A stretch of 64,000 nt of DNA from contig NC_018518.1 in the NCBI RefSeq assembly GCF_000306945.1, forward strand, positions 3,596,001-3,660,000. The letters are read 5' to 3'. Numbering within the stretch: the first letter of the stretch is position 1; each line of letters begins with the position of its first letter. Below the pieces are notes generated by a model. It was not told the DNA's origin, searched no databases, and saw nothing but the letters and a program-made list of their open reading frames with translations. Shown here in pieces: positions 8,789 through 63,551 of the stretch. The translations under genes and the position numbers were made by a program. The DNA comes from Bordetella pertussis 18323 (GTDB lineage: Bacteria; Pseudomonadota; Gammaproteobacteria; Burkholderiales; Burkholderiaceae_B).

Positions 8789-9192
8789 GTGAAGTTTTTG
8801 CGGTCGATCGCGCCTGGGGGCCGGTCGTCGAGGGCCAGGCCCTGGTCATGCGGGAGGGGTTCAGCCCGCGCTACGACCTGGACCGCTGGAGCGGCGTGAT
8901 CTCGCGCATCGGGCACAGCGCGGAAGGCGAATCCATCAAGGATCGCATCCTCGTCATCCCGACCGCCAAGGGTGGCGTGGCGGGCGGCTGGGCGTTCTAC
9001 GACCTGCTGCACAAGGGCATCGCGCCCAAGGCCCTGGTGTTCGGCAAGCTCAACCCGGTCATGGTCCAGGGAGCGGTGCTGGCCGGCATGCCCATCATGG
9101 AAGGCTTCGACGCGCGCCTGCTGCAGGCCATCGCCAGCGGAGCCGCCCTGCGCCTGGACCCGGCGGCCAAATCCATCGCGCTGCTCGGCTAG
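8785..9192 (+). CDS. Aconitase X small (swivel) subunit
   Basis: A 135-residue AcnX swivel-domain protein (old DUF126), normally a partner of the large subunit. Visible segments are GHSAEGESIKDRILVIPTAKG, AFYDLLHKGIAPKALVFGKL and MVQGAVLAGMPIM. The ATG overlaps the stop of the large-subunit frame by four bases, so translation was probably coupled. In other swivel proteins a serine-rich loop follows the PxxxG region; here it reads AKGGVAGGW, so substrate class is uncertain. The TAG stop is part of the CTAG at the edge of IS481 copy 1. With the large subunit broken, this subunit is probably orphaned. Confidence 0.85.
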   Translation: MSEVFAVDRAWGPVVEGQALVMREGFSPRYDLDRWSGVISRIGHSAEGESIKDRILVIPTAKGGVAGGWAFYDLLHKGIAPKALVFGKLNPVMVQGAVLAGMPIMEGFDARLLQAIASGAALRLDPAAKSIALLG

Positions 9193-10139
9193 GTGTGAAC
9201 TGTCAATAGGTTGTATTCGTCCAGGTTGAGTCTGGAGATGGGTACAGCGCGCCCGATGCCTTGGTGGGGTCGATGCCAGTTGTAGTGGTGTAGCCAGGAT
9301 TTCATGGCATCGGCTCGGTGTTGGGAGTTCTGGTAGGTGTGAGCGTAAGCCCACTCACGCAAGGCCGACTGGATGAAGCGTTCGGCCTTGCCATTGGTCT
9401 GTGGGCGGTAAGGTCGGGTAAAGCGGTGCTTGATGCCCAGCTCATGGCACAGCGCGGCGAAGGCGCGGCTGCGAAAGGCCGAGCCATTGTCGGTGAGCAA
9501 GCGCTGGATGGTCACGCCCAGGCGCTGGTAGTAGGCCACTGCGTCCTTGAGGAACTGGACGGCGCTGGGGAAGCGCTCGTCGGGGTGGATGTCGGTGAAG
9601 GCCACGCGGGCGTGGTCATCGATGGCCACGAAGACGAAGTCCCAGCCGGCCCCCTCAACGGTATCGCGTCGGTTGCCCGTGACCCGGTGGCCAGGGCGCT
9701 GGATACGTCCCAGCTTCTTGATGTCGATGTGCAGCAGATCGCCGGGGGCCTGATGCTCGTAGCGCACCACCGGCTCGGCCGGCTCCAGGTCGGCCAGGTG
9801 CGACAGACCGGCGCGGGCCAGGACGCGGCTGACGGTGCTGGCTGACACGCCCAGCGCCTGGGCGATGCGCGCTTGGGTCAGCCGCTTGCGGCGCAGCTCC
9901 ACGATAGCCAGCGCCTTGGCCGGCGCAATCGCTCGGGGCGAGACCGTCGGGCGCGAGGACGCATCGGCCAAGCCCGCCTGGCCCTGAGCCAGGAAGCGGC
10001 CCAGCCATTTGCGCACAGTCGGCGCGGTGACCCCATAGGCGCGGGCCGCTTCAGGCACACAAACTTGATGGGCGATCAATTGCTGGACCATTTCGAGTCG
10101 ACGTAGGAAGGTCAATCGGGCATGCTTATGGGTGTTCAT
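9189..10139 (-). CDS. IS481 transposase (copy 1)
   Basis: A 316-residue IS481-family transposase: N-terminal helix-turn-helix region from MNTHKHARLTFLRRLEMVQQ, a second HTH near ALGVSASTVSRVLARA, and a DDE integrase core with HIDIKKLGR, TDNGSAF and a Glu in NGKAERFIQ. The last codon and the TAG stop lie in the flanking target sequence (ACC TAG), not in the element. The reading frame is intact. Confidence 0.96.
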   Translation of the reverse strand: MNTHKHARLTFLRRLEMVQQLIAHQVCVPEAARAYGVTAPTVRKWLGRFLAQGQAGLADASSRPTVSPRAIAPAKALAIVELRRKRLTQARIAQALGVSASTVSRVLARAGLSHLADLEPAEPVVRYEHQAPGDLLHIDIKKLGRIQRPGHRVTGNRRDTVEGAGWDFVFVAIDDHARVAFTDIHPDERFPSAVQFLKDAVAYYQRLGVTIQRLLTDNGSAFRSRAFAALCHELGIKHRFTRPYRPQTNGKAERFIQSALREWAYAHTYQNSQHRADAMKSWLHHYNWHRPHQGIGRAVPISRLNLDEYNLLTVHT

Positions 10140-10236
10140 CCGGCCGGGCTCCTTGAGTGAACTGGGGGGTCGGCGATTTCCAGTTTCTCAAATCCGGTTC
10201 GGATGAACCATGCATACAACCTATTGAATCTTCACA
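9194..10236 (-). mobile_element. IS481: IS481, copy 1
   Basis: A complete 1,043-bp IS481. The ends are TGTGAACTGTCAATAGGTTG at 9194 and the complement of TGTGAAGATTCAATAGGTTG ending at 10236, imperfect inverted repeats. It is nearly identical to the four other copies in the window. The flanking 6-mers are GCTAGG (9188-9193) and GCTAGC (10237-10242), which differ in the last base; three other copies have perfectly matching flanks. It sits between the stop codons of two convergent genes. Confidence 0.97.
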
Positions 10237-10237
10237 G

Positions 10238-10693
10238 CTAGCGCGCCGCGGCGTCGGCGCCCGGCGCGCGCGCCGGCGACAGCGCCTTCCAGGTGGAGGT
10301 GGCCATGGCCAGCGGCTCGCCTTGCGCGTCGGTCAGGGTCGACTTCAGGAACGAGATGCTGCGCCCGCGCTGCAGGAACTCGCCGCGGCAGTACACCGTG
10401 CCCTGGCGTACGGCCTTCAGGTACTGGGTCTTCATTTCCAGCGTCAGGCCGGCGCCCTGTACGTGGTTGAGCAGGTGTCCCATCGAGATGTCCATCACGG
10501 TGGCGATGATGCCGCCGTGCAGGCTGCCCTGCGGATTGAACAGGAAATCCTGGGGTTCGAAGACGATCAGGCACTGGCCGTCGGGGTAGCTGATGTCCAG
10601 GCCCAGCAGGCGGGCCAGGAAAAACTGCCCGAACTCGGGGCGCTGGGTGCGCAATGCGTCCTGGAAGGCGCGCAGGGCGGCGCTTTCGTCCAT
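10238..10693 (-). CDS. PaaI-family (hotdog) thioesterase
   Basis: A 151-residue hotdog-fold protein. The segment NPQGSLHGGIIATVMDISMG is the usual PaaI-type active-site region, with HGG and an Asp on the long helix. Such enzymes hydrolyse acyl- or aroyl-CoA thioesters in the cytoplasm. It starts 12 bases after the broken CoA-transferase gene and is the last gene of a minus-strand operon (dehalogenase, CoA-transferase, thioesterase). Its stop codon is the TAG of the CTAG bordering IS481 copy 1, so the insertion did not change its coding sequence. Confidence 0.88.
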   Translation of the reverse strand: MDESAALRAFQDALRTQRPEFGQFFLARLLGLDISYPDGQCLIVFEPQDFLFNPQGSLHGGIIATVMDISMGHLLNHVQGAGLTLEMKTQYLKAVRQGTVYCRGEFLQRGRSISFLKSTLTDAQGEPLAMATSTWKALSPARAPGADAAAR

Positions 10694-10705
10694 CGATGAT
10701 TCTCC

Positions 10706-11879
10706 TCAGTTGCTGGTGGCGTGGGTGCGTATGATGCCGCGCGCGGCCAGGTCCGCCACGCGTTCGGGCCGCAAGCCGGCATGTTCGCACAGGATCGCCG
10801 CCGTATGCTCGCCCAGCAGCGGGGGCGCGCGATGCGCCGCCGTCCCGGCCCCGTCGAAGCGGAACGGGCTGGCGATGTTGCGCACCTGTCCGGCGCTCGG
10901 GTGCGGCATGTCGAACACCATGCCGCGCGACACCAGTTGCTCGGCCTCGCAGACCTCGGCCACCGAGCGTATGTCGCCGCACGGCACGCCGGCTTCGCGC
11001 AGCGCGGCGATCCAGTATGCGCGCGGTTTCGCGGCGATCAGGGCGGCGATGCGCGGCACCAGTTCGGCGCGCAGCGCGACGCGGTCGGCGGCGCGCGATC
11101 ACGCCGCAGAACAATTGCCAGAACTTGTCGTTGGCCACGCCGATGTTCAGCCAGCCGTCGGCGGCCTGGAACGTCTCGTACGGGGCGATGGTCGGGTGCG
11201 CGTTGCCGCGCCGCGTGGGGCTGGCGCCGGTGGTGAAGTAGATGCCGGCGTTGAAGGTCAGCAGCGACGCCATGCAGTCGAGCATGGCGATGCCGACATG
11301 GCGGCCCTGTCCGCTGGACGCGCGTTCCAGCAGCGCCGCGGTGATGGCCTGGGAGGCGAACTGGCCGGTGATCAGGTCGGCGATGGAGGTGCCGATCTTG
11401 GTCGGCAGGCCGGCCGGGTCGCCCGTGATGTCCATGATGCCCGATTCGCCCTGGATGATCAGGTCGTAGCCGGGCCGCTGCGCGTCCGGGCCGCTGTCGC
11501 CGAAGCCGGTGATCGAGCAGCTGACCAGGCGCGGGTTAGCGGCCCGCAGCGCGTCGTATCCGAGGTCGAGCCGCTCCATCGTGCCGGGCCGGAAGTTGTC
11601 GATGACGACGTCGCTGGCGCGCGCCAGCGCGCGCAGCAGCTCCTTGCCTTCGGGCTGCTTGAGGTCGATGGCGCAGCTGCGCTTGTTGCGGTTGACCGAA
11701 AGGAAATAGGCGCTTTCGCCGCCGCTGAACGGAGGCCCGAAGGCGCGGCTGTCGTCGCCATGGACCGGCTCCTCGATCTTGATGACCTCGGCGCCCAGGT
11801 CGCCCAGCAGCATGGTGCAGAACGGGCCGGACACCACGCGCGTCAAGTCCAGGACGCGTATTCCGTGCAGCGGCGACAT
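10706..11879 (-). pseudogene. CaiB/BaiF CoA-transferase, frameshifted with small deletion
   Basis: The first part, from MSPLHGIRVLDLTRVVSGPF through NFRPGTMERLDLGYDALR to KFWQLFCGVI near 11110, is a type III CoA-transferase. The C-terminal part continues in another frame with RVALRAELVPRIAALIAAK to RGIIRTHATSN. About 15-18 residues expected between them are missing (the paralogue at 54308-55503 has them), so a deletion of a few tens of bases with a frame change is likely. The family moves CoA between carboxylic acids. It lies between the dehalogenase (2-base gap) and the thioesterase. Confidence 0.85.
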
Positions 11880-11881
11880 GC

Positions 11882-12589
11882 TCAGCCCACCATCGCGTCG
11901 GCCAGCGACTTCATGTCGTCGACCCACAGGTCGGGCTGGTGCGGCGTGCCGCCGAACGGACGCTTGCGGCGGTCGATGAAGGCGCTGTGCATGCCGGCCG
12001 ATTTGGCGCCCAGGCAGTCGAACGCGTGGTTGGCCACGAACAGCACCTCATCCATGCGTACCCCTTCGATTTCGGCGGCCTTGGCGTACGTGGCCACGTG
12101 CGGCTTGAACGAATTGGCCTCGGCCACCGAGATGACGTTGTCGAACGGGATGCCGTGATGGCGCTTGGCGGTTTCCAGCATGTCGCGGTCGCCGTTGGAC
12201 AGCACCACGATGCGGTAGCGGGTCTGCAGGCGCGCCAATGCCTCGGGCACGTCCGGGAAGGGCTTGAGCTGTTCGATGCAGCCGACCAGGTAGCGCACCT
12301 CCTCGGCGGTGTGCGCGATGCCGGCGCGCTCCAGCGTGTAGGCCACGGCGCGGTGGCCGATTTCGCGGTACGGCGTGTGTTCCTGGTGCAGCAAGGCGTC
12401 GATCATCGAGTTCTCGAAGTGCGTGCGGCGCCACCAGGTCACGAACGAATTGGGGTTGCCGGTCCAGCCCTTTTCCTTGAGATAGGGGGCGGCGATCTCC
12501 ACCAGCCCTTTCTGCATGTCGACCACCGTTCCGTACTGGTCGAACATGACTACCTTGATCTTTTGCTTGAGAGTTTCTGCGGTCGCCAT
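11882..12589 (-). CDS. Haloacid dehalogenase type II-like hydrolase
   Basis: A 235-residue HAD hydrolase. The nucleophile motif is VMFDQYGTVVD near residue 14, motif II is VVLSNGD, and the C-terminal core has FKPHVATYAKA and VLFVANHAFDCLGAKSAG. The spacing matches L-2-haloacid dehalogenases, although the usual SSN before the last motif is replaced by ANH, so the true substrate may differ. It is the first gene of the operon with the CoA-transferase and thioesterase and diverges from a LysR gene 228 bases away. Confidence 0.85.
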   Translation of the reverse strand: MATAETLKQKIKVVMFDQYGTVVDMQKGLVEIAAPYLKEKGWTGNPNSFVTWWRRTHFENSMIDALLHQEHTPYREIGHRAVAYTLERAGIAHTAEEVRYLVGCIEQLKPFPDVPEALARLQTRYRIVVLSNGDRDMLETAKRHHGIPFDNVISVAEANSFKPHVATYAKAAEIEGVRMDEVLFVANHAFDCLGAKSAGMHSAFIDRRKRPFGGTPHQPDLWVDDMKSLADAMVG

Positions 12590-12817
12590 GTGGTTTCTCC
12601 TGGTTGGCGTGAAAGCGCGTGTGTCGCGGCCCTGCCATGTTCGGTTCCGGCTATATATTCGTCCAATGGATAGTCATTATGGAATTATTCTTTATTTCAA
12701 TAATTGTCCTGGGCAGGCTGGAATAACGCTGGTCACGAGGAATCGTTGCGATAGAACGCGCCGGCGCGGCGTCGCCTGCATTAGAATTCGGCAGTCTTTT
12801 CCGCTACGGGAACTGTC

Positions 12818-13762
12818 ATGCGCGCCGCCGTCAATCTGCGATCGGTCGATCTGAACCTGCTGGTGTTTTTCGACGCGCTCATGACCGAGCGTCATGTCAC
12901 CCGCGCCGCCGACCGCATCGCGGTCAGCCAGCCCGCGATGAGCAACGCGTTGTCGCGGCTGCGCATGGTGTTCAAGGACGAGCTGTTCGTGCGCACGGCC
13001 AAGGGCATGGAGCCCACGCCGCGCGCGCTGGAGCTGGGCGAGAGCGTGCACGCCACGCTGCAGCAGGCCGCGCGCCTGATGACCAGCGACATCCAGTTCG
13101 ATCCATCCAGCACGCAGCGCCAGTTCAGCCTGCGCATGTCGGACCTGGTGGGCACGCTGGTCCTGCCGGCCCTGATGGCGCGGGTGGACGCGGCCGCGCC
13201 CGGGCTGGCCATCGATACCGTGCATCTTTCGCCCGAGCAGACCATCGAGGCGCTGGAGGCCGATCGCCTGGACCTGGCCGTCAGCATGGAGCTGCAGCAC
13301 ACCAGCGCGATCCGCGCCGAGGCCCTGTTCAGCGACAGGATGGTGTGCGTGCTGCGCAAGGGGCACCCGCTGGCCGGGCGCCGGTTGACGCTCAAGCAGT
13401 TCCTCGCGTACCGCCATGTGCGCGTTTCGATGAGCCCTACCGACATCCGCTTCGTCGACAGCGTGCTGGCCGGCCAGGGCCTGCGCCGCGAGGTGGCGCT
13501 GAACGTGACGCACTGGCTGCTGGTGCCGGCCGTGCTGCGCGACACGGACCTGCTGGTGGTGAAGTCCGAGCGGGCGGCGCAGCGCATCGCGGGGCCGGAC
13601 ACCATGATCCGGCCCTTGCCGTTCGCCACGCCCGGCTTTCAATGGACCTTGTACTGGCATCGGCGCTACGAGCACAGCCGCGCCCATCAATGGCTGCGCG
13701 AGCAGGTGCGGGCGGTGGCGCCGCAGGGCCAGGGCCTGTCCACGCCCGGCGCGGCGGGGTGA
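12818..13762 (+). CDS. LysR-family transcriptional regulator
   Basis: A 314-residue LysR regulator of the NodD/LeuO-like branch: LRSVDLNLLVFFDALMTERH, then the recognition region VSQPAMSNALSRLRMVFKDE with LFVRTAKGMEPTPRA. It is transcribed away from the dehalogenase/CoA-transferase/thioesterase operon and is its probable regulator. The 228-base region between them (12590-12817) is comparatively AT-rich and must hold both promoters. The gene is intact. Confidence 0.92.
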   Translation: MRAAVNLRSVDLNLLVFFDALMTERHVTRAADRIAVSQPAMSNALSRLRMVFKDELFVRTAKGMEPTPRALELGESVHATLQQAARLMTSDIQFDPSSTQRQFSLRMSDLVGTLVLPALMARVDAAAPGLAIDTVHLSPEQTIEALEADRLDLAVSMELQHTSAIRAEALFSDRMVCVLRKGHPLAGRRLTLKQFLAYRHVRVSMSPTDIRFVDSVLAGQGLRREVALNVTHWLLVPAVLRDTDLLVVKSERAAQRIAGPDTMIRPLPFATPGFQWTLYWHRRYEHSRAHQWLREQVRAVAPQGQGLSTPGAAG

Positions 13763-20269: not shown

Positions 20270-20962
20270 ATGTGGGATACGGCGCTTGAAGGTCTGTCCG
20301 AAACCGAGCGGCAACGCATCGAGGCGTGCATGACGCGGCGCCAGCTTGCGCCCCGCCGCATGCTGCTGCGCCAGGGCAGGAAGGCCGGCTGCATCAGCGT
20401 GATCCTGAGCGGCCGGATACGCAGCGCCCAGCTTGCCTGGGACGGCCGGGAGTCGAGCAATGTGTTCGGCAAGGGCGCCATGCTGGGCGTGATCTCGACC
20501 ATGCTGGACGAGCCGGCCTTCGCGTCGCTGGAAACCCTGGACCGGGCCGAGGTGGCGCAGCTGGACCGCGCCAGCCTGCTGCGCCTGATGCAGGCCATCC
20601 CGCGCCTGTCGCTCAATATCGCCATGACGCTGGCGCGCTTTGGCGCCACCAGCGTGCAACGCCGCTACCGCGCCGAAGAACAGACGCCCCTGCGGCTGGC
20701 GCAGGTGCTGTGCGAACTGGCCATGCTGGATGAGGCCGGGGAGCGCGGCGAAATCCGCGGCCTTACCCAGCAGGACCTGGCCACCATGGTCAATGCGTCG
20801 CGCAGCTGGGTGGCGCTGAAGCTGGGCTGCCTGGAAAGCCAGGGCCTGATCGATTACCGGCGCGCCATCATCGTCATTCCCGACCTGCCGGCGCTGGCGC
20901 GCTACAGCCGCGGGCAGGCGGACATGGCCGAGGCGGCGCGCCCGCGCCGCGCCGCCGCCTAG
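20270..20962 (+). CDS. Crp/Fnr-family transcriptional regulator
   Basis: A 230-residue regulator with an N-terminal cNMP-binding-like beta barrel (LRQGRKAGCISVILSGRIRS) and a C-terminal winged helix (RGLTQQDLATMVNASRSWVA). No Cys cluster for an iron-sulfur site is present, so it is not an Fnr type. The ATG at 20270 has GGAGGAGG upstream; an in-frame ATG at 20255 is less well placed. The TAG stop lies in the CTAG target of IS481 copy 2. Before the insertion it shared that CTAG with the stop of the convergent gene now at 22008. Confidence 0.88.
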   Translation: MWDTALEGLSETERQRIEACMTRRQLAPRRMLLRQGRKAGCISVILSGRIRSAQLAWDGRESSNVFGKGAMLGVISTMLDEPAFASLETLDRAEVAQLDRASLLRLMQAIPRLSLNIAMTLARFGATSVQRRYRAEEQTPLRLAQVLCELAMLDEAGERGEIRGLTQQDLATMVNASRSWVALKLGCLESQGLIDYRRAIIVIPDLPALARYSRGQADMAEAARPRRAAA

Positions 20963-20963
20963 T

Positions 20964-22006
20964 TGTGAAGATTCAATAGGTTGTATGCATGGTTCATCCG
21001 AACCGGATTTGAGAAACTGGAAATCGCCACCCCCCCAGTTCACTCAAGGAGCCCGGCCGGATGAACACCCATAAGCATGCCCGATTGACCTTCCTACGTC
21101 GACTCGAAATGGTCCAGCAATTGATCGCCCATCAAGTTTGTGTGCCTGAAGCGGCCCGCGCCTATGGGGTCACCGCGCCGACTGTGCGCAAATGGCTGGG
21201 CCGCTTCCTGGCTCAGGGCCAGGCGGGCTTGGCCGATGCGTCCTCGCGCCCGACGGTCTCGCCCCGAGCGATTGCGCCGGCCAAGGCGCTGGCTATCGTG
21301 GAGCTGCGCCGCAAGCGGCTGACCCAAGCGCGCATCGCCCAGGCGCTGGGCGTGTCAGCCAGCACCGTCAGCCGCGTCCTGGCCCGCGCCGGTCTGTCGC
21401 ACCTGGCCGACCTGGAGCCGGCCGAGCCGGTGGTGCGCTACGAGCATCAGGCCCCCGGCGATCTGCTGCACATCGACATCAAGAAGCTGGGACGTATCCA
21501 GCGCCCTGGCCACCGGGTCACGGGCAACCGACGCGATACCGTTGAGGGGGCCGGCTGGGACTTCGTCTTCGTGGCCATCGATGACCACGCCCGCGTGGCC
21601 TTCACCGACATCCACCCCGACGAGCGCTTCCCCAGCGCCGTCCAGTTCCTCAAGGACGCAGTGGCCTACTACCAGCGCCTGGGCGTGACCATCCAGCGCT
21701 TGCTCACCGACAATGGCTCGGCCTTTCGCAGCCGCGCCTTCGCCGCGCTGTGCCATGAGCTGGGCATCAAGCACCGCTTTACCCGACCTTACCGCCCACA
21801 GACCAATGGCAAGGCCGAACGCTTCATCCAGTCGGCCTTGCGTGAGTGGGCTTACGCTCACACCTACCAGAACTCCCAACACCGAGCCGATGCCATGAAA
21901 TCCTGGCTACACCACTACAACTGGCATCGACCCCACCAAGGCATCGGGCGCGCTGTACCCATCTCCAGACTCAACCTGGACGAATACAACCTATTGACAG
22001 TTCACA
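20964..22006 (+). mobile_element. IS481: IS481, copy 2
   Basis: A complete 1,043-bp IS481 with matching 6-base target duplications CCTAGT at 20958-20963 and 22007-22012. The matching flanks show a simple insertion that has not recombined. It separates two convergent genes whose stop codons both lie in the duplicated CTAG, so neither lost its stop. Confidence 0.98.
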
Positions 22007-22011
22007 CCTAG
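21061..22011 (+). CDS. IS481 transposase (copy 2)
   Basis: Intact 316-residue IS481 transposase, identical in protein sequence to copy 1. Its last codon and TAG (ACC TAG) are provided by the target duplication CCTAGT. Confidence 0.96.
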   Translation: MNTHKHARLTFLRRLEMVQQLIAHQVCVPEAARAYGVTAPTVRKWLGRFLAQGQAGLADASSRPTVSPRAIAPAKALAIVELRRKRLTQARIAQALGVSASTVSRVLARAGLSHLADLEPAEPVVRYEHQAPGDLLHIDIKKLGRIQRPGHRVTGNRRDTVEGAGWDFVFVAIDDHARVAFTDIHPDERFPSAVQFLKDAVAYYQRLGVTIQRLLTDNGSAFRSRAFAALCHELGIKHRFTRPYRPQTNGKAERFIQSALREWAYAHTYQNSQHRADAMKSWLHHYNWHRPHQGIGRAVPISRLNLDEYNLLTVHT

Positions 22012-22382
22012 TCCCGCAACGTGATGCCGCCCGCGCCATCGGGCGCGAACACGGGTGTGGCGGCGGTGAACACGTAGGCCAGACGCTGCTCGGCCAGCGC
22101 ATCGGACATGCGCATGGCGGCCGTGTCCGGGCGCGCCATCAGGTCGTCCAGCGTGGCCTGCAGATCGTCGGTGTCGATCTCCAGGATGGTCAGGTAGCGC
22201 CACGTCTGGGCGTGCGGCTTGGCCTGTGCGTGCGCCCAGGTGAAGCGCTGCCCGGAAACAAAGCCCGGCACGCGCATGACGTCCGGCATGTGGGTATTCA
22301 TGTACCAGTCGTCGAACTCCTGTTCGCGTCCTTCGACCGGGTTGGTCAGGACCACCAGTTTGTGCCTGGGCATGGCGTTCAT
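22008..22382 (-). CDS. EthD-like small alpha/beta-barrel protein
   Basis: A protein of 121-124 residues with LVVLTNPVEGREQEFDDWYM followed by NTHMPDVMRVPGF, the pattern of EthD/dimeric alpha-beta barrel proteins. These often act as small isomerases or accessory proteins in catabolic operons. An ATG at 22382 overlaps the stop of the CoA-ligase gene (ATGA), but GGAGG directly touches it; the ATG at 22373 (MPRHKL) is nine bases from GGAGG and may be the real start. The stop is the TAG in the target duplication of IS481 copy 2. It is the last gene of the seven-gene operon. Confidence 0.78.
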   Translation of the reverse strand: MNAMPRHKLVVLTNPVEGREQEFDDWYMNTHMPDVMRVPGFVSGQRFTWAHAQAKPHAQTWRYLTILEIDTDDLQATLDDLMARPDTAAMRMSDALAEQRLAYVFTAATPVFAPDGAGGITLRD

Positions 22383-45440: not shown

Positions 45441-46373
45441 ATGCTGCACATCGACGACGCAATGATCGAGGACGCGGTCACTCCGCAGGCCGCGCAGGAG
45501 GTGCTGCACGCCGCATTCCTGGACTTCGGCCGGGGCTCGGCCGCCATGCAGCGGCGCGTGCGCACCGAGGCCGGCGGCGTGAAGCTGTCGACCCTGGGCG
45601 CGGTGATTCCCGGCCAGGGCGTGGCCGGCGCCAAGGTGTACACCACGATCAAGGGGCAGTTCCAGTTCGTGATCCTGCTGTTTTCGGCCGCCGACGGCCG
45701 GCCGCTGGCGACGTGCGACGCAGGCACGCTGACGCGCAAGCGCACCGCGGCGTGCACGGTGCTGGCCGCCGGCGCGCTGGCCCGTCCGCGTTCCAGCGTG
45801 CTGGGGCTGTTCGGCGCCGGCACCCAGGGCGCCGAGCATGCGGCGCAGCTGAGCGCGCGCTTTGCCCTGGAGGCCATCCTGGTCCATGACCCGTATGCGT
45901 CGCCCGAGATCCTGGAGCGCATCGGCCGGCGCTGCGGCGTCCCGGCGCGCATGGCCGCGCCCGCCGACATTGCCGCGCAGGCCGATATCGTGGTGACCGC
46001 AACGCGCTCGACCACGCCGCTGTTTGCCGGGCAGGCATTGCGCGCGGGCGCGTTCGTGGGGGCGATCGGGTCCAGCCTGCCGCATACGCGGGAACTGGAC
46101 GACGAGGCCTTGCGCCGCGCGCGGGCGGTCGTGGTGGAGTGGCGCGAGCAGACGCTGTCCGAAGCGGGCGACCTGGTGCTGGCCGCGCCGGATACCGGCC
46201 TGGACGCCAAAGTGGTCGAACTGGCCGATGTGCTGGCCGGGCGGGCGGCGGCGCGCCAGGCGGATGAAGATATCGTGATCTACAAGTCGGTGGGCGTGGG
46301 GCTGGAGGACGTGGCCCTGGCCGGGTACGCCTACCGCCGCCTGGCCGCCCAGCGCGGCTGGCCGGCGCCCTAG
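45441..46373 (+). CDS. Ornithine cyclodeaminase/mu-crystallin family protein
   Basis: A 310-residue NAD(P)-binding protein. The first domain has LDFGRGSAAMQRRVRTEAGG and LGAVIPGQGVAGAKVYTTIK; the Rossmann motif is VLGLFGAGTQGAEHAAQLSA. Family members include ornithine cyclodeaminase, alanine dehydrogenase and delta1-pyrroline-2-carboxylate reductase. GGGAG precedes the ATG. The TAG stop is the CTAG target of IS481 copy 3. It closes the ferredoxin operon, so an imine- or amine-related oxidation is possible. Confidence 0.88.
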   Translation: MLHIDDAMIEDAVTPQAAQEVLHAAFLDFGRGSAAMQRRVRTEAGGVKLSTLGAVIPGQGVAGAKVYTTIKGQFQFVILLFSAADGRPLATCDAGTLTRKRTAACTVLAAGALARPRSSVLGLFGAGTQGAEHAAQLSARFALEAILVHDPYASPEILERIGRRCGVPARMAAPADIAAQADIVVTATRSTTPLFAGQALRAGAFVGAIGSSLPHTRELDDEALRRARAVVVEWREQTLSEAGDLVLAAPDTGLDAKVVELADVLAGRAAARQADEDIVIYKSVGVGLEDVALAGYAYRRLAAQRGWPAP

Positions 46374-47320
46374 CTGTGAACTGTCAATAGGTTGTATTCG
46401 TCCAGGTTGAGTCTGGAGATGGGTACAGCGCGCCCGATGCCTTGGTGGGGTCGCTGCCAGTTGTAGTGGTGTAGCCAGGATTTCATGGCATCGGCTCGGT
46501 GTTGGGAGTTCTGGTAGGTGTGAGCGTAAGCCCACTCACGCAAGGCCGACTGGATGAAGCGTTCGGCCTTGCCATTGGTCTGTGGGCGGTAAGGTCGGGT
46601 AAAGCGGTGCTTGATGCCCAGCTCATGGCACAGCGCGGCGAAGGCGCGGCTGCGAAAGGCCGAGCCATTGTCGGTGAGCAAGCGCTGGATGGTCACGCCC
46701 AGGCGCTGGTAGTAGGCCACTGCGTCCTTGAGGAACTGGACGGCGCTGGGGAAGCGCTCGTCGGGGTGGATGTCGGTGAAGGCCACGCGGGCGTGGTCAT
46801 CGATGGCCACGAAGACGAAGTCCCAGCCGGCCCCCTCAACGGTATCGCGTCGGTTGCCCGTGACCCGGTGGCCAGGGCGCTGGATACGTCCCAGCTTCTT
46901 GATGTCGATGTGCAGCAGATCGCCGGGGGCCTGATGCTCGTAGCGCACCACCGGCTCGGCCGGCTCCAGGTCGGCCAGGTGCGACAGACCGGCGCGGGCC
47001 AGGACGCGGCTGACGGTGCTGGCTGACACGCCCAGCGCCTGGGCGATGCGCGCTTGGGTCAGCCGCTTGCGGCGCAGCTCCACGATAGCCAGCGCCTTGG
47101 CCGGCGCAATCGCTCGGGGCGAGACCGTCGGGCGCGAGGACGCATCGGCCAAGCCCGCCTGGCCCTGAGCCAGGAAGCGGCCCAGCCATTTGCGCACAGT
47201 CGGCGCGGTGACCCCATAGGCGCGGGCCGCTTCAGGCACACAAACTTGATGGGCGATCAATTGCTGGACCATTTCGAGTCGACGTAGGAAGGTCAATCGG
47301 GCATGCTTATGGGTGTTCAT
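46370..47320 (-). CDS. IS481 transposase (copy 3)
   Basis: Intact 316-residue IS481 transposase with one substitution, His to Gln, near residue 292 in YNWQRPHQG. The last codon and stop (AGC TAG) lie in the flanking target sequence. Confidence 0.95.
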   Translation of the reverse strand: MNTHKHARLTFLRRLEMVQQLIAHQVCVPEAARAYGVTAPTVRKWLGRFLAQGQAGLADASSRPTVSPRAIAPAKALAIVELRRKRLTQARIAQALGVSASTVSRVLARAGLSHLADLEPAEPVVRYEHQAPGDLLHIDIKKLGRIQRPGHRVTGNRRDTVEGAGWDFVFVAIDDHARVAFTDIHPDERFPSAVQFLKDAVAYYQRLGVTIQRLLTDNGSAFRSRAFAALCHELGIKHRFTRPYRPQTNGKAERFIQSALREWAYAHTYQNSQHRADAMKSWLHHYNWQRPHQGIGRAVPISRLNLDEYNLLTVHS

Positions 47321-47417
47321 CCGGCCGGGCTCCTTGAGTGAACTGGGGGATCGGCGATTTCCAGTTTCTCAAATCCGGTTCGGATGAACCATGCATACAA
47401 CCTATTGAATCTTCACA
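46375..47417 (-). mobile_element. IS481: IS481, copy 3
   Basis: A complete 1,043-bp IS481 with flanking 6-mers CCTAGC (46369-46374) and CCTAGG (47418-47423), which do not match. The right flank enters the interior of a second transposase gene whose beginning is absent. It carries one amino acid change (YNWQRPHQ instead of YNWHRPHQ) and a distinct sequence near its right end (GGGGGATCGGCG). Confidence 0.97.
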
Positions 47418-48339
47418 CCTAGGTCGAGCCCTTCTTGTTAACAGGGTGATGCAACAGAACTGGACGATGAGGCAGGCCAGCCAGGCGGCAGGGGTGAGCC
47501 TGCGCACCGGTTACAAGTGGCTTGCCCGCTTCCGAAGCGAAGGTCTGGACGGCCTGCTTGACCGCAGTTCTCGCCCGCACCGCAGCCCGAAGGCCTGTGC
47601 GCCCGAGCAGGTTGAGCACTTCGCCCAGCAGCGCCGCCAGCGTCTGCCGCTGTGGCGCATCGCGCGTGAAGCCGGCCGCAGCCTGGCCACCGTGGCGCGG
47701 TATATGGAACGCATCGGCCTGAGTCGACTCGCCTCGTTGGAGCCGCCGGCGCCGGTGCGCCGCTATGAACGCGCCAGCCCAGGCGAGCTGCTGCACATCG
47801 ACACCAAGCGGCTGGGCCGCATCCGGGGCGTGGGCCATCGCATCACCGGCGATCGGGCCCAGAACCGCAACCGCGGCATTGGCTGGGACGCTGTGCACCT
47901 GGCCATCGATGACTTCTCGCGCGTGTCCTTTGCTCGCATCCTCGACGATGAAGGCGGCGATCAGTGCGCTGAGTTCCTGCGCCAAGCCACCGCCTACTAC
48001 GCCAGTCTGGGCGTGCGCATCGACCGCGTGATGACCGACAACGGCAGCGGCTACGTCTCCAGGACCTTTCGGGCGGTGTGCGTGGAGCTGGGAATCCGTC
48101 ACATCCGCACCCGCCCCTACACCCCCAAGACCAACGGCAAGGCCGAGCGCCTCGTGCAGACCTGCTTACGGGAGTGGGCATACGCCAGGCCCTACACGAG
48201 CTCAGCCGAACGACAGGCTGCCTTGCAGCCCTTCATTGACCGCTACAACTGGCATCGACCCCACCAAGGCATCGGGCGCGCTGTACCCATCTCCAGACTC
48301 AACCTGGACGAATACAACCTATTGACAGTTCACATCTAG
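47418..48339 (+). pseudogene. IS1002-like transposase, 5-prime truncated
   Basis: The transposase frame begins at the IS481 junction (LGRALLVNRVMQQNWTMRQA) and runs to NLLTVHI. It has HTH regions AGVSLRTGYKWLARFRSEGL and a DDE core with HIDTKRLGR, TDNGSGYVSRTF and NGKAERLVQ. About 12-14 N-terminal residues are lost. The frame stays open backwards into IS481 to an ATG at 47338, so a fusion protein of 333 residues is possible. The TAG stop is again in the target bases. Confidence 0.82.
47424..48334 (+). mobile_element. IS1002-like element, truncated at its left end
   Basis: About 911 bp of a second IS481-family element, joined to IS481 copy 3. Relative to a full element of roughly 1,040 bp, the left terminal repeat and the first dozen or so transposase codons are missing. 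From about 48243 to 48334 it is identical to the end of IS481, while the rest is clearly divergent. The right end TTCACA is followed by TCTAGC. IS1002 is the likely identity, but IS1663 or another relative could not be excluded without comparison. Confidence 0.75.
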
Positions 48340-48340
48340 C

Positions 48341-48495: not shown

Positions 48496-49706
48496 TAATC
48501 ACAACCCCAGATCGTTAAAATTTACGGAAACTTATAAAGGAAAATAGACGAATCAACCCAAGGGATTGCTGGCTGGCTTGCCCATCATGCGTCCCCAGAC
48601 TCGATAATAGGCGCGCATGATTTCATCGTCCTGGGCCTTGAGCCCTTCATGCCGAGCGAATAATCCCCACTTGGATGCTTCGCGGCGATGCGTTTCCGAA
48701 ACGGTTTCAACGAAAATGACGTCTTCGGCCAGATTTCTTCCTAATGGGCCCCATATTTCGTTGTGATGCTTGACTCGCACCTTGCGATCTTGCTCTGACT
48801 CACCGAGAATTCCCAAACCGCGCTGCTCAAGCAAGGTGATACCTGGCGCAATTGGCGTGCTTGTATCTATACGGATCGCTGTCGCCCGCACCAGAATGGT
48901 TGTGTTGGGGAAGAGATCAACCATACGCAATTCGCCGGGCCCCAAGCCAGGTAAAAGATGACCGCTTCGAGTTTCCCAACCCTTGTAGTTGTCATACGAA
49001 ACCTCCATGGGATCCAGTGTTCCGTGACCGTTCTCGTGGATGCACCAGGTACGGTTGTGATAGCCATCGGCAGCGATAGCAGTGGATCTGTTCACGATGT
49101 GCCCCCATTCGTGATATAGCTCCATGTTCGTTTCATGCCATTGCTTCCAATTGGCGTTCATCGTGACCTGGTGATGATGGAAGACCTCCAGGGGCTTGGT
49201 TGTCATCACCTCTTCCAAGCAATCCATGACATTTCCAACGTGCTGATCAAAATCGTCAGCATCGTCATCTAGATTAATAAAGAGCATGCCAAATTTGTTA
49301 TGGCATCGGATCCGGCGAAGCCCTTGCTCGCCCTTACAAACACCCGACTGGGCATAACCGTCTTCGCGCGTAATCTCAATGCATCGCCCCTTATCGTCAA
49401 ATGTCCACAGATGAAAGAAGCAAGCCAGATTCTTCGCATTACCGCGAACATCCGTGACCAGCTTGGATCCTCGATGCGGACAGGCGTTAACAAAGGCACG
49501 TACGCTGCCATCCTCACCCCGGATAACGAAGACGGGAATGCCCGCGTGATTCAATGCTCGATAGTCGCCGAGATTAGGAATTTCGCTTTCATGACATGCA
49601 AATTTCCAGGTCTTTGCGAAAATATTCTTCAACTCGTCGTCAAATATCTGCTGCGACGTGTAGATGTCGACATCAACATAATGGTCATCGGGGAGGTCCG
49701 GGCGAG

Positions 49707-50657
49707 CTAACTGTGAACTGTCAATAGGTTGTATTCGTCCAGGTTGAGTCTGGAGATGGGTACAGCGCGCCCGATGCCTTGGTGGGGTCGATGCCAGTTG
49801 TAGTGGTGTAGCCAGGATTTCATGGCATCGGCTCGGTGTTGGGAGTTCTGGTAGGTGTGAGCGTAAGCCCACTCACGCAAGGCCGACTGGATGAAGCGTT
49901 CGGCCTTGCCATTGGTCTGTGGGCGGTAAGGTCGGGTAAAGCGGTGCTTGATGCCCAGCTCATGGCACAGCGCGGCGAAGGCGCGGCTGCGAAAGGCCGA
50001 GCCATTGTCGGTGAGCAAGCGCTGGATGGTCACGCCCAGGCGCTGGTAGTAGGCCACTGCGTCCTTGAGGAACTGGACGGCGCTGGGGAAGCGCTCGTCG
50101 GGGTGGATGTCGGTGAAGGCCACGCGGGCGTGGTCATCGATGGCCACGAAGACGAAGTCCCAGCCGGCCCCCTCAACGGTATCGCGTCGGTTGCCCGTGA
50201 CCCGGTGGCCAGGGCGCTGGATACGTCCCAGCTTCTTGATGTCGATGTGCAGCAGATCGCCGGGGGCCTGATGCTCGTAGCGCACCACCGGCTCGGCCGG
50301 CTCCAGGTCGGCCAGGTGCGACAGACCGGCGCGGGCCAGGACGCGGCTGACGGTGCTGGCTGACACGCCCAGCGCCTGGGCGATGCGCGCTTGGGTCAGC
50401 CGCTTGCGGCGCAGCTCCACGATAGCCAGCGCCTTGGCCGGCGCAATCGCTCGGGGCGAGACCGTCGGGCGCGAGGACGCATCGGCCAAGCCCGCCTGGC
50501 CCTGAGCCAGGAAGCGGCCCAGCCATTTGCGCACAGTCGGCGCGGTGACCCCATAGGCGCGGGCCGCTTCAGACACACAAACTTGATGGGCGATCAATTG
50601 CTGGACCATTTCGAGTCGACGTAGGAAGGTCAATCGGGCATGCTTATGGGTGTTCAT
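49707..50657 (-). CDS. IS481 transposase (copy 4)
   Basis: Intact 316-residue IS481 transposase with Ser in HQVCVSEAARAYG where other copies have Pro. The final codon and stop read AGT TAG and lie in the duplicated target GTTAGC. Confidence 0.95.
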   Translation of the reverse strand: MNTHKHARLTFLRRLEMVQQLIAHQVCVSEAARAYGVTAPTVRKWLGRFLAQGQAGLADASSRPTVSPRAIAPAKALAIVELRRKRLTQARIAQALGVSASTVSRVLARAGLSHLADLEPAEPVVRYEHQAPGDLLHIDIKKLGRIQRPGHRVTGNRRDTVEGAGWDFVFVAIDDHARVAFTDIHPDERFPSAVQFLKDAVAYYQRLGVTIQRLLTDNGSAFRSRAFAALCHELGIKHRFTRPYRPQTNGKAERFIQSALREWAYAHTYQNSQHRADAMKSWLHHYNWHRPHQGIGRAVPISRLNLDEYNLLTVHS

Positions 50658-50754
50658 CCGGCCGGGCTCCTTGAGTGAACTGGGGGGGTGGCGATTTCCA
50701 GTTTCTCAAATCCGGTTCGGATGAACCATGCATACAACCTATTGAATCTTCACA
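49712..50754 (-). mobile_element. IS481: IS481, copy 4
   Basis: A complete 1,043-bp IS481 with matching 6-base duplications GCTAAC at 49706-49711 and 50755-50760. The target departs from CTAG (CTAA on this strand, TTAG on the other). It sits inside codons 9-10 of the Rieske alpha-subunit gene. One Pro-to-Ser change distinguishes its transposase. Confidence 0.98.
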
Positions 50755-50823
50755 GCTAACCATTGCTGGGAGGATCTGGACATTCTAAGTTTCCTTCAAA
50801 TAGGAGCGAATATTGATGAAATA

Positions 50824-58294: not shown

Positions 58295-58304
58295 GGAGAT
58301 TCGT

Positions 58305-59176: not shown

Positions 59177-59206
59177 CGGCCAGACGCAAAGTCTGGCCGT
59201 TTTTTT
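59177..59206 (+). terminator. Rho-independent terminator after kbp
   Basis: CGGCCAGAC and GTCTGGCCG pair perfectly over nine bases around the loop GCAAA, followed by seven T residues. The direction fits the kbp transcript; ffh converges from the right and lacks a T-run on its own side. Confidence 0.9.
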
Positions 59207-59221
59207 ACTGCGCGCTCGCCG

Positions 59222-60631
59222 CTAGCGCATGCCGCCAAAGCGGCCCAGGCCCTTCATGCCGCCCATGGCGCGCATCATCTTGGCCATGCCGCCTTTTTTC
59301 ATCTGCTTCATCATGCCCTGCATCTGCTCGAACTGAGACAGCAGGCGGTTGACTTCCTGCACCGGCACGCCGGCGCCGGCGGCGATGCGGCGCTTGCGCG
59401 AGGCCTTGATCAACTCGGGCTTGGCGCGCTCGCCCGGCGTCATGGAGTTCAGGATGCCCTCGGTGCGGCGCAGCTGCTTCTCGGCCTGGCCGCCCTGCAG
59501 CTGGCCGGCTGCCTGCTGGAGCTGCGCGGGCAGCTTTTCCAGCAGCGAGCCCATGTCGCCCAGCTTCTTGACCTGGCCGAGTTGGTCGCGGAAGTCGTTC
59601 AAGTCGAACTTGTTGCCGGACTTGATCTTCGAGGCCAGCTTCTGCGCCTCGGCGATGTCGATGTTCTTCTGCGCCTGCTCGACCAGCGACACGATGTCGC
59701 CCATGCCCAGCACGCGCTGCGCCATGCGCTCGGGGTGGAACGGCTCGAGGCCGTCCAGCTTTTCGGAGACGCCGACGAACTTCAGCGGCTTGCCGGTGAC
59801 GTGGCGCACCGACAGCGCCGCGCCGCCGCGCGCGTCGCCGTCCAGCTTGGTCAGCACCACGCCGGTCAGCGGCAGCGCGTCGCCAAAGGCCCGCGCGGTA
59901 TTGACCGCGTCCTGGCCCTGCATCGCGTCGACCACGAACAGCGTCTCGATCGGCTTGACCAGGTCGTGCAGCGCGCGGATCTCGCGCATCATGGCCTCGT
60001 CGATGCCCAGCCGGCCCGCCGTGTCGACGATCAGCACGTCGTAGTGGTGGCGGCGCGCATGGTCGATCGCGTTGCGGGCGATGTCTTCCGGCTTCTGGCT
60101 AACGTCCGACGGCAGAAAATCCACCCCGACCTGGGCGGCCACGGTCTTCAGCTGCTCGATGGCGGCCGGGCGATACACGTCGGCGCTGACCACCAGCACC
60201 TTCTTCTTGCCCGTCTTGCGGCCGCCCTGGACGTGCTGCCCCTCGGACAGCCAGCGCGCCAGCTTGCCGGTGGTGGTGGTCTTGCCCGCGCCCTGCAGGC
60301 CGGCCATCAGGATGACCGCGGGCGGCTGGGTGGCCAGCGACAGCTCGCCGGCGTGCTCGCCCAGGTCGCCGCCCATCAGGCTGGTCAGCTCCTTGTGAAC
60401 CACGCCCACCAGGGCCTGGCCGGGGCTGAGGCTGCCGGCCACTTCTTCGCCCAGGGCCTTTTCCTTGACGCGCGCCACGAAATCGCGCACCACGGGCAGC
60501 GCCACGTCGGCCTCCAGCAGCGCCATGCGCACTTCGCGCAGCATCTCCTGGGTGTTGGCCTCGGTCAGGCGGGCTTCGCCGCGCAGCGTCTTGACGACGC
60601 GCGACAGCCGTTGAGTCAGGTTATCGAGCAT
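59222..60631 (-). CDS. ffh: Signal recognition particle protein
   Basis: A 469-residue SRP GTPase that binds signal sequences of membrane proteins with 4.5S RNA. The N domain is LTQRLSRVVKTLRGEARLTE; the G motifs are GLQGAGKTTTTGKLARWL, DTAGRLGIDE, TKLDGDARGGAAL; and the Met-rich M domain ends MQGMMKQMKKGGMAKMMRAM. It is essential and intact. It diverges from the membrane protein at 60737. Confidence 0.97.
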   Translation of the reverse strand: MLDNLTQRLSRVVKTLRGEARLTEANTQEMLREVRMALLEADVALPVVRDFVARVKEKALGEEVAGSLSPGQALVGVVHKELTSLMGGDLGEHAGELSLATQPPAVILMAGLQGAGKTTTTGKLARWLSEGQHVQGGRKTGKKKVLVVSADVYRPAAIEQLKTVAAQVGVDFLPSDVSQKPEDIARNAIDHARRHHYDVLIVDTAGRLGIDEAMMREIRALHDLVKPIETLFVVDAMQGQDAVNTARAFGDALPLTGVVLTKLDGDARGGAALSVRHVTGKPLKFVGVSEKLDGLEPFHPERMAQRVLGMGDIVSLVEQAQKNIDIAEAQKLASKIKSGNKFDLNDFRDQLGQVKKLGDMGSLLEKLPAQLQQAAGQLQGGQAEKQLRRTEGILNSMTPGERAKPELIKASRKRRIAAGAGVPVQEVNRLLSQFEQMQGMMKQMKKGGMAKMMRAMGGMKGLGRFGGMR

Positions 60632-60736
60632 GAGAGGCGTTTCCGCTTACACTAGTTGATTGAACGAGGCCGCCTGGGCGCAGCTAGCCGCCGGCGGGCG
60701 ACAAGCGCCCATGGCCCCATCCAGACAACGGTTTTT

Positions 60737-61579
60737 ATGTCATCAGGCATTGTATTTCACGCCGTGGCCGCGCTGGCTTATGCGGTACTCGCAGGGTCGC
60801 TGTGGCGACGCCTGCAAGGCCGCGGCAGCGTGGATCAAGCAAGCAAGCTAACCCGAACCGGCCTGCTGGGCGCGCTGGCCCTGCACGGCGTGGCCCTGCA
60901 GCAAGCCATGCTGGGGACGCAACACCTGTACATCGGCTGGGCGCTGGCCCTGTCGGCCGCCGTATGGCTGGGCCTGGTCGTGTTCTGGCTGGAAAGCCTG
61001 CTGATCCGCATCGACGGCCTGCAGCTGCTGTTGCTGCCGGCAGCCGCTATCGTAACCGCAATAGCCGCGCTGTTCCCGCAGGCCCAGCTGGTGCCCCATG
61101 CCAACAACCCCTGGCTGCGCGCCCACCTGCTCATCGCGCTGGCCGCCTACGGCCTGATCACCATCGCCGCGCTGCACGCCATGCTGATGGCCCTGCTCGA
61201 CCGCCACCTGCACCGCCCGCTGGATGCGCCGGCCGAGCGCAGCATCGTCGGCCGCGTGCTGGACGCCCAGCCGCCGCTGCTGGTGCAGGAGCGCCTGCTG
61301 TTTCGCGTCATCTGGATCGGCTTCGTGGTCCTGACCCTGGCGGTGGGCTCCGGCTCGGTCGCCTCCATCACCCTGACCGGCAAATTCCTGCCGTTCGACC
61401 ACAAGACCATCTTCACGCTGCTGTCCTGGGCCACCTTCGGCGTGCTGCTGCTGGGCCGCCACATCTGCGGCTGGCGCGGCCGCGTCGCGCTGCGCTGGAC
61501 CCTGACCGGCTTCGCGTTCCTGATCCTGGCCTACACCGGCAGCCGGTTCGTGCTGGAAGTCATTCTGCATCGAGGTTGA
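60737..61579 (+). CDS. CcsA-like inner membrane protein (YpjD type)
   Basis: A 280-residue membrane protein with about eight helices of the cytochrome c assembly (CcsA/ResC) superfamily: HAVAALAYAVLAGSLWRRLQ, VWLGLVVFWLESLL, WLRAHLLIALAAYGLITIAA and LSWATFGVLLLGRHICGWRG. The His in the WLRAH and HICGW regions fit the family. In many Proteobacteria this gene follows ffh divergently; the function is linked to metal transport or cytochrome handling but not settled. Confidence 0.88.
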   Translation: MSSGIVFHAVAALAYAVLAGSLWRRLQGRGSVDQASKLTRTGLLGALALHGVALQQAMLGTQHLYIGWALALSAAVWLGLVVFWLESLLIRIDGLQLLLLPAAAIVTAIAALFPQAQLVPHANNPWLRAHLLIALAAYGLITIAALHAMLMALLDRHLHRPLDAPAERSIVGRVLDAQPPLLVQERLLFRVIWIGFVVLTLAVGSGSVASITLTGKFLPFDHKTIFTLLSWATFGVLLLGRHICGWRGRVALRWTLTGFAFLILAYTGSRFVLEVILHRG

Positions 61580-61580
61580 A

Positions 61581-61832
61581 GTGGGCAAGCTGATCTTCTG
61601 GTTCGTCGTCATTCTGGCCGTGCTGTTCATCGCGCGCCTGGCCGGCGCCCGCGCCGCCTCCAAGCGCGCCCCGCGCGCCGAGCCGCCCCGCCCCGCCCAG
61701 GACGCCGCCAGCCAGCCCATGGTGCGCTGCGCCCATTGCGGCGTGCACCTGCCGCGTTCCGAGGCCGTGCTGCTGGGCGGGCAGACCTGGTGCAGCAGCG
61801 ACCACGCCCGCCGCGGCGCCGAGCGCGGCTGA
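61581..61832 (+). CDS. Small membrane protein of the PP0621 family
   Basis: An 83-residue protein with one N-terminal membrane helix (LIFWFVVILAVLFIARLAGA), a charged Pro-rich linker and a zinc-ribbon-like end (MVRCAHCGVHLPRSEAVL, TWCSSDHA). It starts at GTG 61581, one base after the upstream stop. Function unknown; it usually precedes a histidine kinase or ampD. Confidence 0.8.
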   Translation: MGKLIFWFVVILAVLFIARLAGARAASKRAPRAEPPRPAQDAASQPMVRCAHCGVHLPRSEAVLLGGQTWCSSDHARRGAERG

Positions 61833-61920
61833 ACGGCGGCCGCCGCAAAACCCCACGGGCTGGAGGATCCGGCCCCATCCTGCATAATGCAGGGTCACCC
61901 GCAACAAGCCTGACCCCATC

Positions 61921-62502
61921 ATGCAACGATTGCTACTGGACCGCCACGGCTGGCTGATCCCCGGGCCCGCGGTCACCCGCGCCCCTTCGCCCAACGTCAA
62001 CGCCCGCCCCGCGGGCACGCAGATCAGCCTGCTGGTCATCCACAACATCAGCCTGCCGCCCAGCCAGTTCGGCGGCCCGTACGTCGCCGACCTGTTCCTG
62101 AACCGCCTGGATTACAGCGCCGACCCGTGGCTCGAGCGCCTGCGCGGCCTGCATGTCTCGGCCCACTTCTTCATCCGCCGCGACGGCGCCGTCATCCAGT
62201 TCGCCGCCACCGAAGCGCGCGCCTGGCACGCCGGCGTATCCCGCTTCAGGGGCCGCGACAACTGCAACGACTTCTCGATCGGCATCGAACTGGAAGGCAC
62301 CGACATCCTGCCCTACGCCGACGCCCAGTACGCCACGCTGGCGCGCCTGGCGCAGGTCCTGCGCGCGCGCTACCCGCTGGCCGACGCGCGCGGCCACGAA
62401 CACATCGCCCCGGGCCGCAAGACCGACCCGGGACGCGCCTTCAACTGGGTGCGCTTCGGCCGCGAAAGCGGGTTCCCGCGGCGCAACCTGCCGCCCGTAT
62501 AG
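61921..62502 (+). CDS. ampD: 1,6-anhydro-N-acetylmuramyl-L-alanine amidase
   Basis: A 193-residue zinc amidase that cleaves anhydromuropeptides in the cytoplasm during cell wall recycling; loss of it induces AmpC in many bacteria. The zinc ligands are in LLVIHNISLPPSQFGG (His), and GHEHIAPGRKTDPGRAFNW (His and Asp), with HFFIRRDGAVIQF and IGIELEGTD typical. The TAG stop lies in the TATAGC target of IS481 copy 5, so the coding sequence is complete. Confidence 0.94.
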   Translation: MQRLLLDRHGWLIPGPAVTRAPSPNVNARPAGTQISLLVIHNISLPPSQFGGPYVADLFLNRLDYSADPWLERLRGLHVSAHFFIRRDGAVIQFAATEARAWHAGVSRFRGRDNCNDFSIGIELEGTDILPYADAQYATLARLAQVLRARYPLADARGHEHIAPGRKTDPGRAFNWVRFGRESGFPRRNLPPV

Positions 62503-62503
62503 C

Positions 62504-63546
62504 TGTGAAGATTCAATAGGTTGTATGCATGGTTCATCCGAACCGGATTTGAGAAACTGGAAATCGCCACCCCCCCAGTTCACTCAAGGAGCCCGGCCGG
62601 ATGAACACCCATAAGCATGCCCGATTGACCTTCCTACGTCGACTCGAAATGGTCCAGCAATTGATCGCCCATCAAGTTTGTGTGCCTGAAGCGGCCCGCG
62701 CCTATGGGGTCACCGCGCCGACTGTGCGCAAATGGCTGGGCCGCTTCCTGGCTCAGGGCCAGGCGGGCTTGGCCGATGCGTCCTCGCGCCCGACGGTCTC
62801 GCCCCGAGCGATTGCGCCGGCCAAGGCGCTGGCTATCGTGGAGCTGCGCCGCAAGCGGCTGACCCAAGCGCGCATCGCCCAGGCGCTGGGCGTGTCAGCC
62901 AGCACCGTCAGCCGCGTCCTGGCCCGCGCCGGTCTGTCGCACCTGGCCGACCTGGAGCCGGCCGAGCCGGTGGTGCGCTACGAGCATCAGGCCCCCGGCG
63001 ATCTGCTGCACATCGACATCAAGAAGCTGGGACGTATCCAGCGCCCTGGTCACCGGGTCACGGGCAACCGACGCGATACCGTTGAGGGGGCCGGCTGGGA
63101 CTTCGTCTTCGTGGCCATCGATGACCACGCCCGCGTGGCCTTCACCGACATCCACCCCGACGAGCGCTTCCCCAGCGCCGTCCAGTTCCTCAAGGACGCA
63201 GTGGCCTACTACCAGCGCCTGGGCGTGACCATCCAGCGCTTGCTCACCGACAATGGCTCGGCCTTTCGCAGCCGCGCCTTCGCCGCGCTGTGCCATGAGC
63301 TGGGCATCAAGCACCGCTTTACCCGACCTTACCGCCCACAGACCAATGGCAAGGCCGAACGCTTCATCCAGTCGGCCTTGCGTGAGTGGGCTTACGCTCA
63401 CACCTACCAGAACTCCCAACACCGAGCCGATGCCATGAAATCCTGGCTACACCACTACAACTGGCATCGACCCCACCAAGGCATCGGGCGCGCTGTACCC
63501 ATCTCCAGACTCAACCTGGACGAATACAACCTATTGACAGTTCACA
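62504..63546 (+). mobile_element. IS481: IS481, copy 5
   Basis: A complete 1,043-bp IS481 with matching duplications TATAGC at 62498-62503 and 63547-63552, a target that departs from CTAG. It lies exactly at the stop codon of ampD and 36 bases before the glutathione S-transferase gene. One synonymous base change (CCTGGTCACC) separates it from the other copies. Confidence 0.98.
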
Positions 63547-63551
63547 TATAG
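62601..63551 (+). CDS. IS481 transposase (copy 5)
   Basis: Intact 316-residue IS481 transposase. It ends NLLTVHI, where the ATA codon for Ile and the TAG stop lie in the duplicated target TATAGC. Confidence 0.96.
   Translation: MNTHKHARLTFLRRLEMVQQLIAHQVCVPEAARAYGVTAPTVRKWLGRFLAQGQAGLADASSRPTVSPRAIAPAKALAIVELRRKRLTQARIAQALGVSASTVSRVLARAGLSHLADLEPAEPVVRYEHQAPGDLLHIDIKKLGRIQRPGHRVTGNRRDTVEGAGWDFVFVAIDDHARVAFTDIHPDERFPSAVQFLKDAVAYYQRLGVTIQRLLTDNGSAFRSRAFAALCHELGIKHRFTRPYRPQTNGKAERFIQSALREWAYAHTYQNSQHRADAMKSWLHHYNWHRPHQGIGRAVPISRLNLDEYNLLTVHI

Follow-up and report, generated by a model that had tools for sequence, protein, structure and literature searches.

How does a transposase gene end when its reading frame stays open to the very end of the element, and does the answer bear on the choice of insertion sites? 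The question is raised by a 64,000-nt stretch of the Bordetella pertussis 18323 genome (NC_018518.1, positions 3,596,001 to 3,660,000; hereafter the window, in whose own coordinates its features are given), which contains five copies of the insertion sequence IS481 and one IS1002-like element.

IS481 and its stop codon in the window

The five copies, located at 9194–10236 (copy 1, minus strand), 20964–22006 (copy 2, plus), 46375–47417 (copy 3, minus), 49712–50754 (copy 4, minus) and 62504–63546 (copy 5, plus), are all 1043 bp long, with terminal inverted repeats of the form TGT...ACA that are imperfect (TGTGAAGATTCAATAGGTTGTA upstream and TGTGAACTGTCAATAGGTTGTA at the coding end; 19 of 22 repeat positions match) and with a 6-bp flank on either side. 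The encoded protein scores 334.6 bits against NCBIfam model NF033577 (cut-off 224), identifying it as an IS481-family transposase, and contains the Pfam domains LZ_Tnp_IS481, rve and rve_3. In every copy the transposase frame is open through the final base of the element and the stop lies in the target: the coding end reads ...LLTVH followed by a split codon and the stop, A|NN TAG, with TAG occupying bases 3–5 of the flanking 6-mer. The 316-aa product of copy 4 (open reading frame 49707–50657), for instance, has the C-terminus LLTVHS. On the strand of the respective element, the TAG codons are found at 9189–9191 for copy 1, within the flank CCTAGC (9188–9193); at 22009–22011 for copy 2, within the duplicated target CCTAGT (22007–22012 and 20958–20963); at 46370–46372 for copy 3, within GCTAGG (46369–46374); at 49707–49709 for copy 4, within the duplicated target GTTAGC (49706–49711 and 50755–50760); and at 63549–63551 for copy 5, within the duplicated target TATAGC (63547–63552 and 62498–62503).

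The first-pass annotation of this DNA had described the same arrangement, and its codons preceding TAG (ACC, ACC, AGC, AGT and ATA), as well as its remark that copies 4 and 5 obtain an in-register TAG from duplicated targets lacking CTAG, were borne out. Its statement that the TAG always falls in the duplicated target has to be narrowed: the TAG is within the flanking 6-mer in all five cases, but the 6-mers, which correspond to a 6-bp target duplication with NCTAGN preferred, are identical on both sides only in copies 2, 4 and 5. The opposite flanks of copies 1 and 3 (GCTAGC and CCTAGG, respectively) are unlike those at the coding end, a pattern that recombination between copies would give. 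Five stops out of five are far from chance, the background stop frequency among random triplets of the window outside the elements being 1.4% (1606/115592), yet they follow directly from the targeting of TA-core sites. CTAG itself is scarce in the window, with 15 occurrences outside the elements compared with about 166 predicted by base composition, so that a notable fraction of these rare sites may be taken up by IS481.

The sixth element, at 47424–48334 on the plus strand, joins a 5'-truncated IS1002 body to an IS481 3' end and is most simply explained as a mosaic originating from recombination. It does end with the codons ATC TAG, as annotated, the stop being located at 48337–48339 in the flank TCTAGC (48335–48340), but because its final 92 nt are identical to those of IS481, it does not constitute independent evidence. 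Six other IS1002 copies were found in the host genome, and these native copies, with the C-terminal coding ...NLLRID(S/N) TAG, resemble IS481 in ending A|NN TAG within an NCTAGN flank, while differing from it in the tail, NLLRID, and in length (1031 bp in the five copies for which the other end was found). Five of the seven IS1002 copies (L334, L337, L339, L341 and L345) abut an IS481 end with a single 6-mer shared between the two, as would be seen if one of them had inserted into the other's copy of the target.

A genome-wide census and the symmetry of the target

The IS481 coding-end pattern occurs 240 times in the host genome, and 185 of the junctions, taken from among the matches listed and not chosen by target, were examined. 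A stop was present at 179 of the 185 (177 TAG and 2 TAA), and none was found at the other six. That the pattern in the window, which holds just five copies, could reflect chance, a few-copy artefact or wrongly placed element boundaries is hardly credible: this reading is refuted by the census when compared with the 1.4% background, and the boundaries are set by copies of 1043 bp that share the same ends but lie at different sites. The last residue of the transposase was confirmed to vary by site, being S in 81, T in 53, N in 22, I in 16, R in 6 and M in 1 of the 179 stopped junctions; the borrowed stop thus explains why the transposases of near-identical IS481 copies differ in their final residue.

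Bases 2–5 of the C-terminal flank were CTAG in 158 of the 175 full-length copies examined, with GTAG (6), CTAC (5), CTAA (2), TTAG (2), ATAG (1) and GCCA (1) accounting for the remainder. Identical 6-mers at both ends were found in 71 of these copies, whereas about 19 would be expected under random pairing; hence, 104 copies have unlike flanks, as inter-copy recombination would give. Recombination between copies is usually discussed in terms of IS481-driven genome rearrangement. At the four tandem junctions, the same 6-mer is kept between the copies. In the genome of a congener, with 50 IS481-type ends, 49 junctions yielded 48 TAG and 1 TAA, and the few off-consensus full-length sites all kept TAG. 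An insertion of IS481 at CCTAAC, outside the NCTAGN consensus, is reported in an earlier study (PMC3053399).

We consider it probable that the TA-centred palindromic target renders an internal stop dispensable, and that stop borrowing is a by-product of the target preference. In IS481 and a large clade of its relatives, the 6-bp target, duplicated on insertion, has a palindromic core centred on TA (preferentially CTAG), and the transposase coding sequence extends across the terminal inverted repeat as far as the final base, with the target read as A|NN TAG. Because the target closes the gene at nearly every new site, the internal stop could have become dispensable, with target specificity presumably arising first and the internal stop being lost afterwards. 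The target preference would then be set by the palindromic specificity of the enzyme rather than by selection for the stop.

The first-pass annotation raised the opposite possibility, namely, that the preference for CTAG persists in part through selection, since the site completes the gene; the transposase of stop-less copies would then be defective or unstable, and such copies would have fewer descendants. Given that an insertion site is chosen before the stop matters, such selection on the site could act only on later generations. Mirror-image targets offer a simple test of this idea. Owing to the palindromic nature of CTAG, a target damaged in one half can be used either way round, but TAG stays in register in just one of the two orientations. 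If the stop mattered at insertion, or if stop-less copies were quickly purged, GTAG should greatly outnumber CTAC. Among the 184 TA-core junctions (of the 185), position 5 was a purine, giving a stop, in 179, and position 2 was a pyrimidine, the mirror requirement, in 176. With only 13 to 17 events, hence low power, and with one flank (L122/L125) counted twice, the TAG half was intact in 10 off-consensus targets and the CTA half in 7 (p = 0.63), and where the two mirror orientations differ in supplying a stop, there were 8 GTAG/ATAG (stop) versus 5 CTAC/CTAT (no stop) sites (p = 0.58). Restricting the comparison to the 71 copies whose two 6-mers agree gave an off-consensus split of 6 to 3, and the 6-mers at the upstream end were symmetric too (position-5 purine and position-2 pyrimidine, 167/173 each). 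The orientation of off-consensus targets therefore leans slightly to the stop-giving side, non-significantly and with low power, whereas complete avoidance of stop-less sites is excluded. So far, the test provides no support for selection.

The six junctions without a target stop show that the 'always' of the first-pass annotation does not extend to the whole genome, two of them being perfect duplications. At L019 (GCTACA) and L074 (GCTACC), the two flanking 6-mers are the same and the stop is missing, and the frame continues for 14 and 62 codons, respectively, including the split codon. The annotation had itself named many copies with targets devoid of an in-register stop, combined with unaffected transposition, as an observation that would speak against its proposal; the six junctions correspond to the first part of this, although one of them, L018 (AGCCAC, with GCCA at bases 2–5), looks like a lost flank. 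Across IS481 copies without a target stop, the read-through extends over 10 to 62 codons or past the 200 nt read. From L116 (G000:C1:2293984-2295244), it enters, still in frame, a stretch resembling aldo/keto reductases (Pfam PF00248, E = 3.3e-13), and from L074 (G000:C1:1473902-1475162), a cupin-like piece with a Cupin_2 match below the Pfam cut-off (E = 3.6e-05).

Read-through of this kind, including the two entries into host-gene-like pieces, together with the lack of a stop in the transposase frame of the element itself, is what might be expected if expression depended on integration, that is, if the gene were closed only at a proper target, whereas free intermediates and wrong-site copies made a non-stop or extended product that regulates activity. 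We regard this as very improbable, considering that the four tandem junctions retain the same 6-mer between copies and that the stop-less junctions of the census are, without exception, listed as single flanks.

Relatives, internal stops and the coding tail

Relatives of IS481 were located at 92 loci (12 + 80), 25 of which were dropped, leaving 67 loci with credible ends identified without use of CTAG, several copies per genome among them; a credible end had to lie at most 45 nt from the point where the protein match finished, a requirement that works against elements whose untranslated ends are long. A stop was present exactly at offset +2 in 59 of the 67 loci (57 TAG and 2 TAA), which span Betaproteobacteria to Nocardia with identity down to 41% and also occur in metagenome bins named Akkermansiaceae and Dehalococcoidia. 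Looser targets found in relatives (GCTAAC, ATTAAT, TGTAAG and GTTAGT) still give TAA or TAG in the copies concerned. The eight loci without an offset +2 stop are L234, L241, L258, L263, L264, L274, L313 and L314. L258 has CCTATC on both sides and no stop, whereas L314, with an internal stop, and L263, L264, L274 and L313, with read-through and unlike flanks, are taken as decayed or rearranged, though still counted within the 67.

Of 29 loci drawn with the NCBIfam model, the stop was borrowed in 13 and internal, in a copy flanked by an exact duplication, in 7, with 9 unresolved; the corresponding numbers for 40 further stretches were 9, 12 and 16, the other 3 being stop-less copies in perfect duplications from genomes G567 and G484. 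In this draw, from which L359 (belonging to the host genome itself) was left out, the best duplication of 4–9 bp was chosen, so that a 4-bp one (L380) may be due to chance. None of the duplications of 13 internal-stop copies from deeper relatives (exact 4, 5 or 7 bp) contained CTAG.

The most instructive exception is an element from genome G577, which is present in six copies with 0 differences across 1034 nt and perfect 6-bp duplications, and which looks recently mobile. Its main transposase frame runs into a stop codon that starts 11 nt short of the element's end, so that this frame does not need a stop from the target; the CTAG-type target is kept nonetheless, the duplications being TCTAAT, CCTAGG, TCTAGA, CCTAGT, CCTAAT and TCTAGG (CTAG in four and CTAA in two). 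The tail, NKVFSIH, is open in the frame of the target, and all six sites happen to keep TAG or TAA. In genome G135, two diverged copies, L234 and L241, have in common a frame change ahead of the inverted-repeat tail and, 30 nt short of the end, an internal TAA; their flanks contain CTAG but are imperfectly matched. The inverted-repeat tail of the G135 element is likewise open in the frame of the target; given the open tails in both genomes, a frameshift product ending at the target's stop could still be made. Unless frameshifting occurs, the G577 element argues against a general need for the target stop, and its apparent recent mobility despite an internal stop also counts against integration-dependent expression.

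In a tree of 56 transposases, with several copies per genome, the G577 and G135 elements sit inside the borrowed-stop clade (bootstrap/SH-aLRT 98/80 and 95/86), and placement of all internal-stop rows in one clade was rejected (p-AU 0.004); L407 and L408 are long branches of uncertain placement. The borrowed stop and the 6-bp TA-core target co-occur on the tree, with 3 changes and 0 of 500 shuffles as low, where L264, L291 and L384 were unlabelled, L258 and L406 were labelled as borrowed by frame although stop-less, and L378 as internal although its duplication is inexact.

The co-occurrence of the borrowed stop and the 6-bp TA-core target on the tree, the long persistence of the register (59/67 loci), the stops obtained by relatives with looser targets and the slight, non-significant lean in orientation are all compatible with selection, and long-term mutual maintenance would equally give both the persistent register and the association on the tree. 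Conversely, the off-target orientation bias is not significant, stop-less perfect duplications exist (three in G567/G484, one at L258 and two in the host genome), and the G577 element retains a CTAG-type target despite its main-frame internal stop. On these grounds, we consider it unlikely that completion of the gene is what maintains the preference, as the first-pass annotation had proposed; such selection may still have acted over long times, but it finds no support in the direct tests, which are of low power. Among the points that count against the by-product explanation, which we prefer, are the small number of internal-stop elements with CTAG targets (six copies in G577 and two in G135), the open tails of both, and the TAG kept at the off-consensus sites of the congener.

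The coding-end inverted repeat encodes NNLLxLH and doubles as a DNA site, raising the question of whether this tail is translated. When the coding and non-coding repeats of the same elements were compared (39 distinct pairs), mean entropy was 0.88 versus 0.45 at third codon positions and 0.38 versus 0.56 at second codon positions. This contrast appears only in the true register (p = 0.015 over positions, and 0 of 5000 end swaps reach it), although the p values are rough because the rows are related; the outer three bases, fixed by the search, were left out. Taken together, the stop register in 59 of 67 loci and the codon rhythm indicate that the tail is probably translated, and the latter suggests that the element end serves as a DNA site and a protein code together. 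Possibly, albeit rather doubtfully, the tail is also functional in the transposase, such that protein tail, DNA end and target stop would form a long-lived triple-use sequence, with the TA-core choice and the missing stop locked in since the ancestor of the clade, apart from occasional escapes such as G577.

Stop borrowing in other insertion sequences

In the literature searched, which had limited coverage, we found no explicit statement of the borrowed stop for IS481 itself. For IS870, a CTAG target is reportedly required to generate the stop codon of the large open reading frame, as the title of Fournier et al. (1993) has it. IS870 belongs to another family of insertion sequences (IS5 type) and is thus an independent case. 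Within the IS481 family, the borrowed stop is already known from two reports (PMC2516522 and PMC6794481). ISLxc2/ISLxx4 of Leifsonia xyli take their stop from the target (PMC2516522); unlike IS481, these are actinobacterial elements, and the accessible part of that report includes neither a census of stop-less sites nor a symmetry test. In ISRe46/TnRErm46 of Rhodococcus equi, the TAG of the right NCTAGN repeat is explicitly described as the UAG stop of the transposase (PMC6794481), so that, as in IS481, the transposase stop comes from the target repeat; in contrast to IS481, this is a transposon with cargo genes, and its left repeat also stops some host genes, such as parB (PMC6794481).
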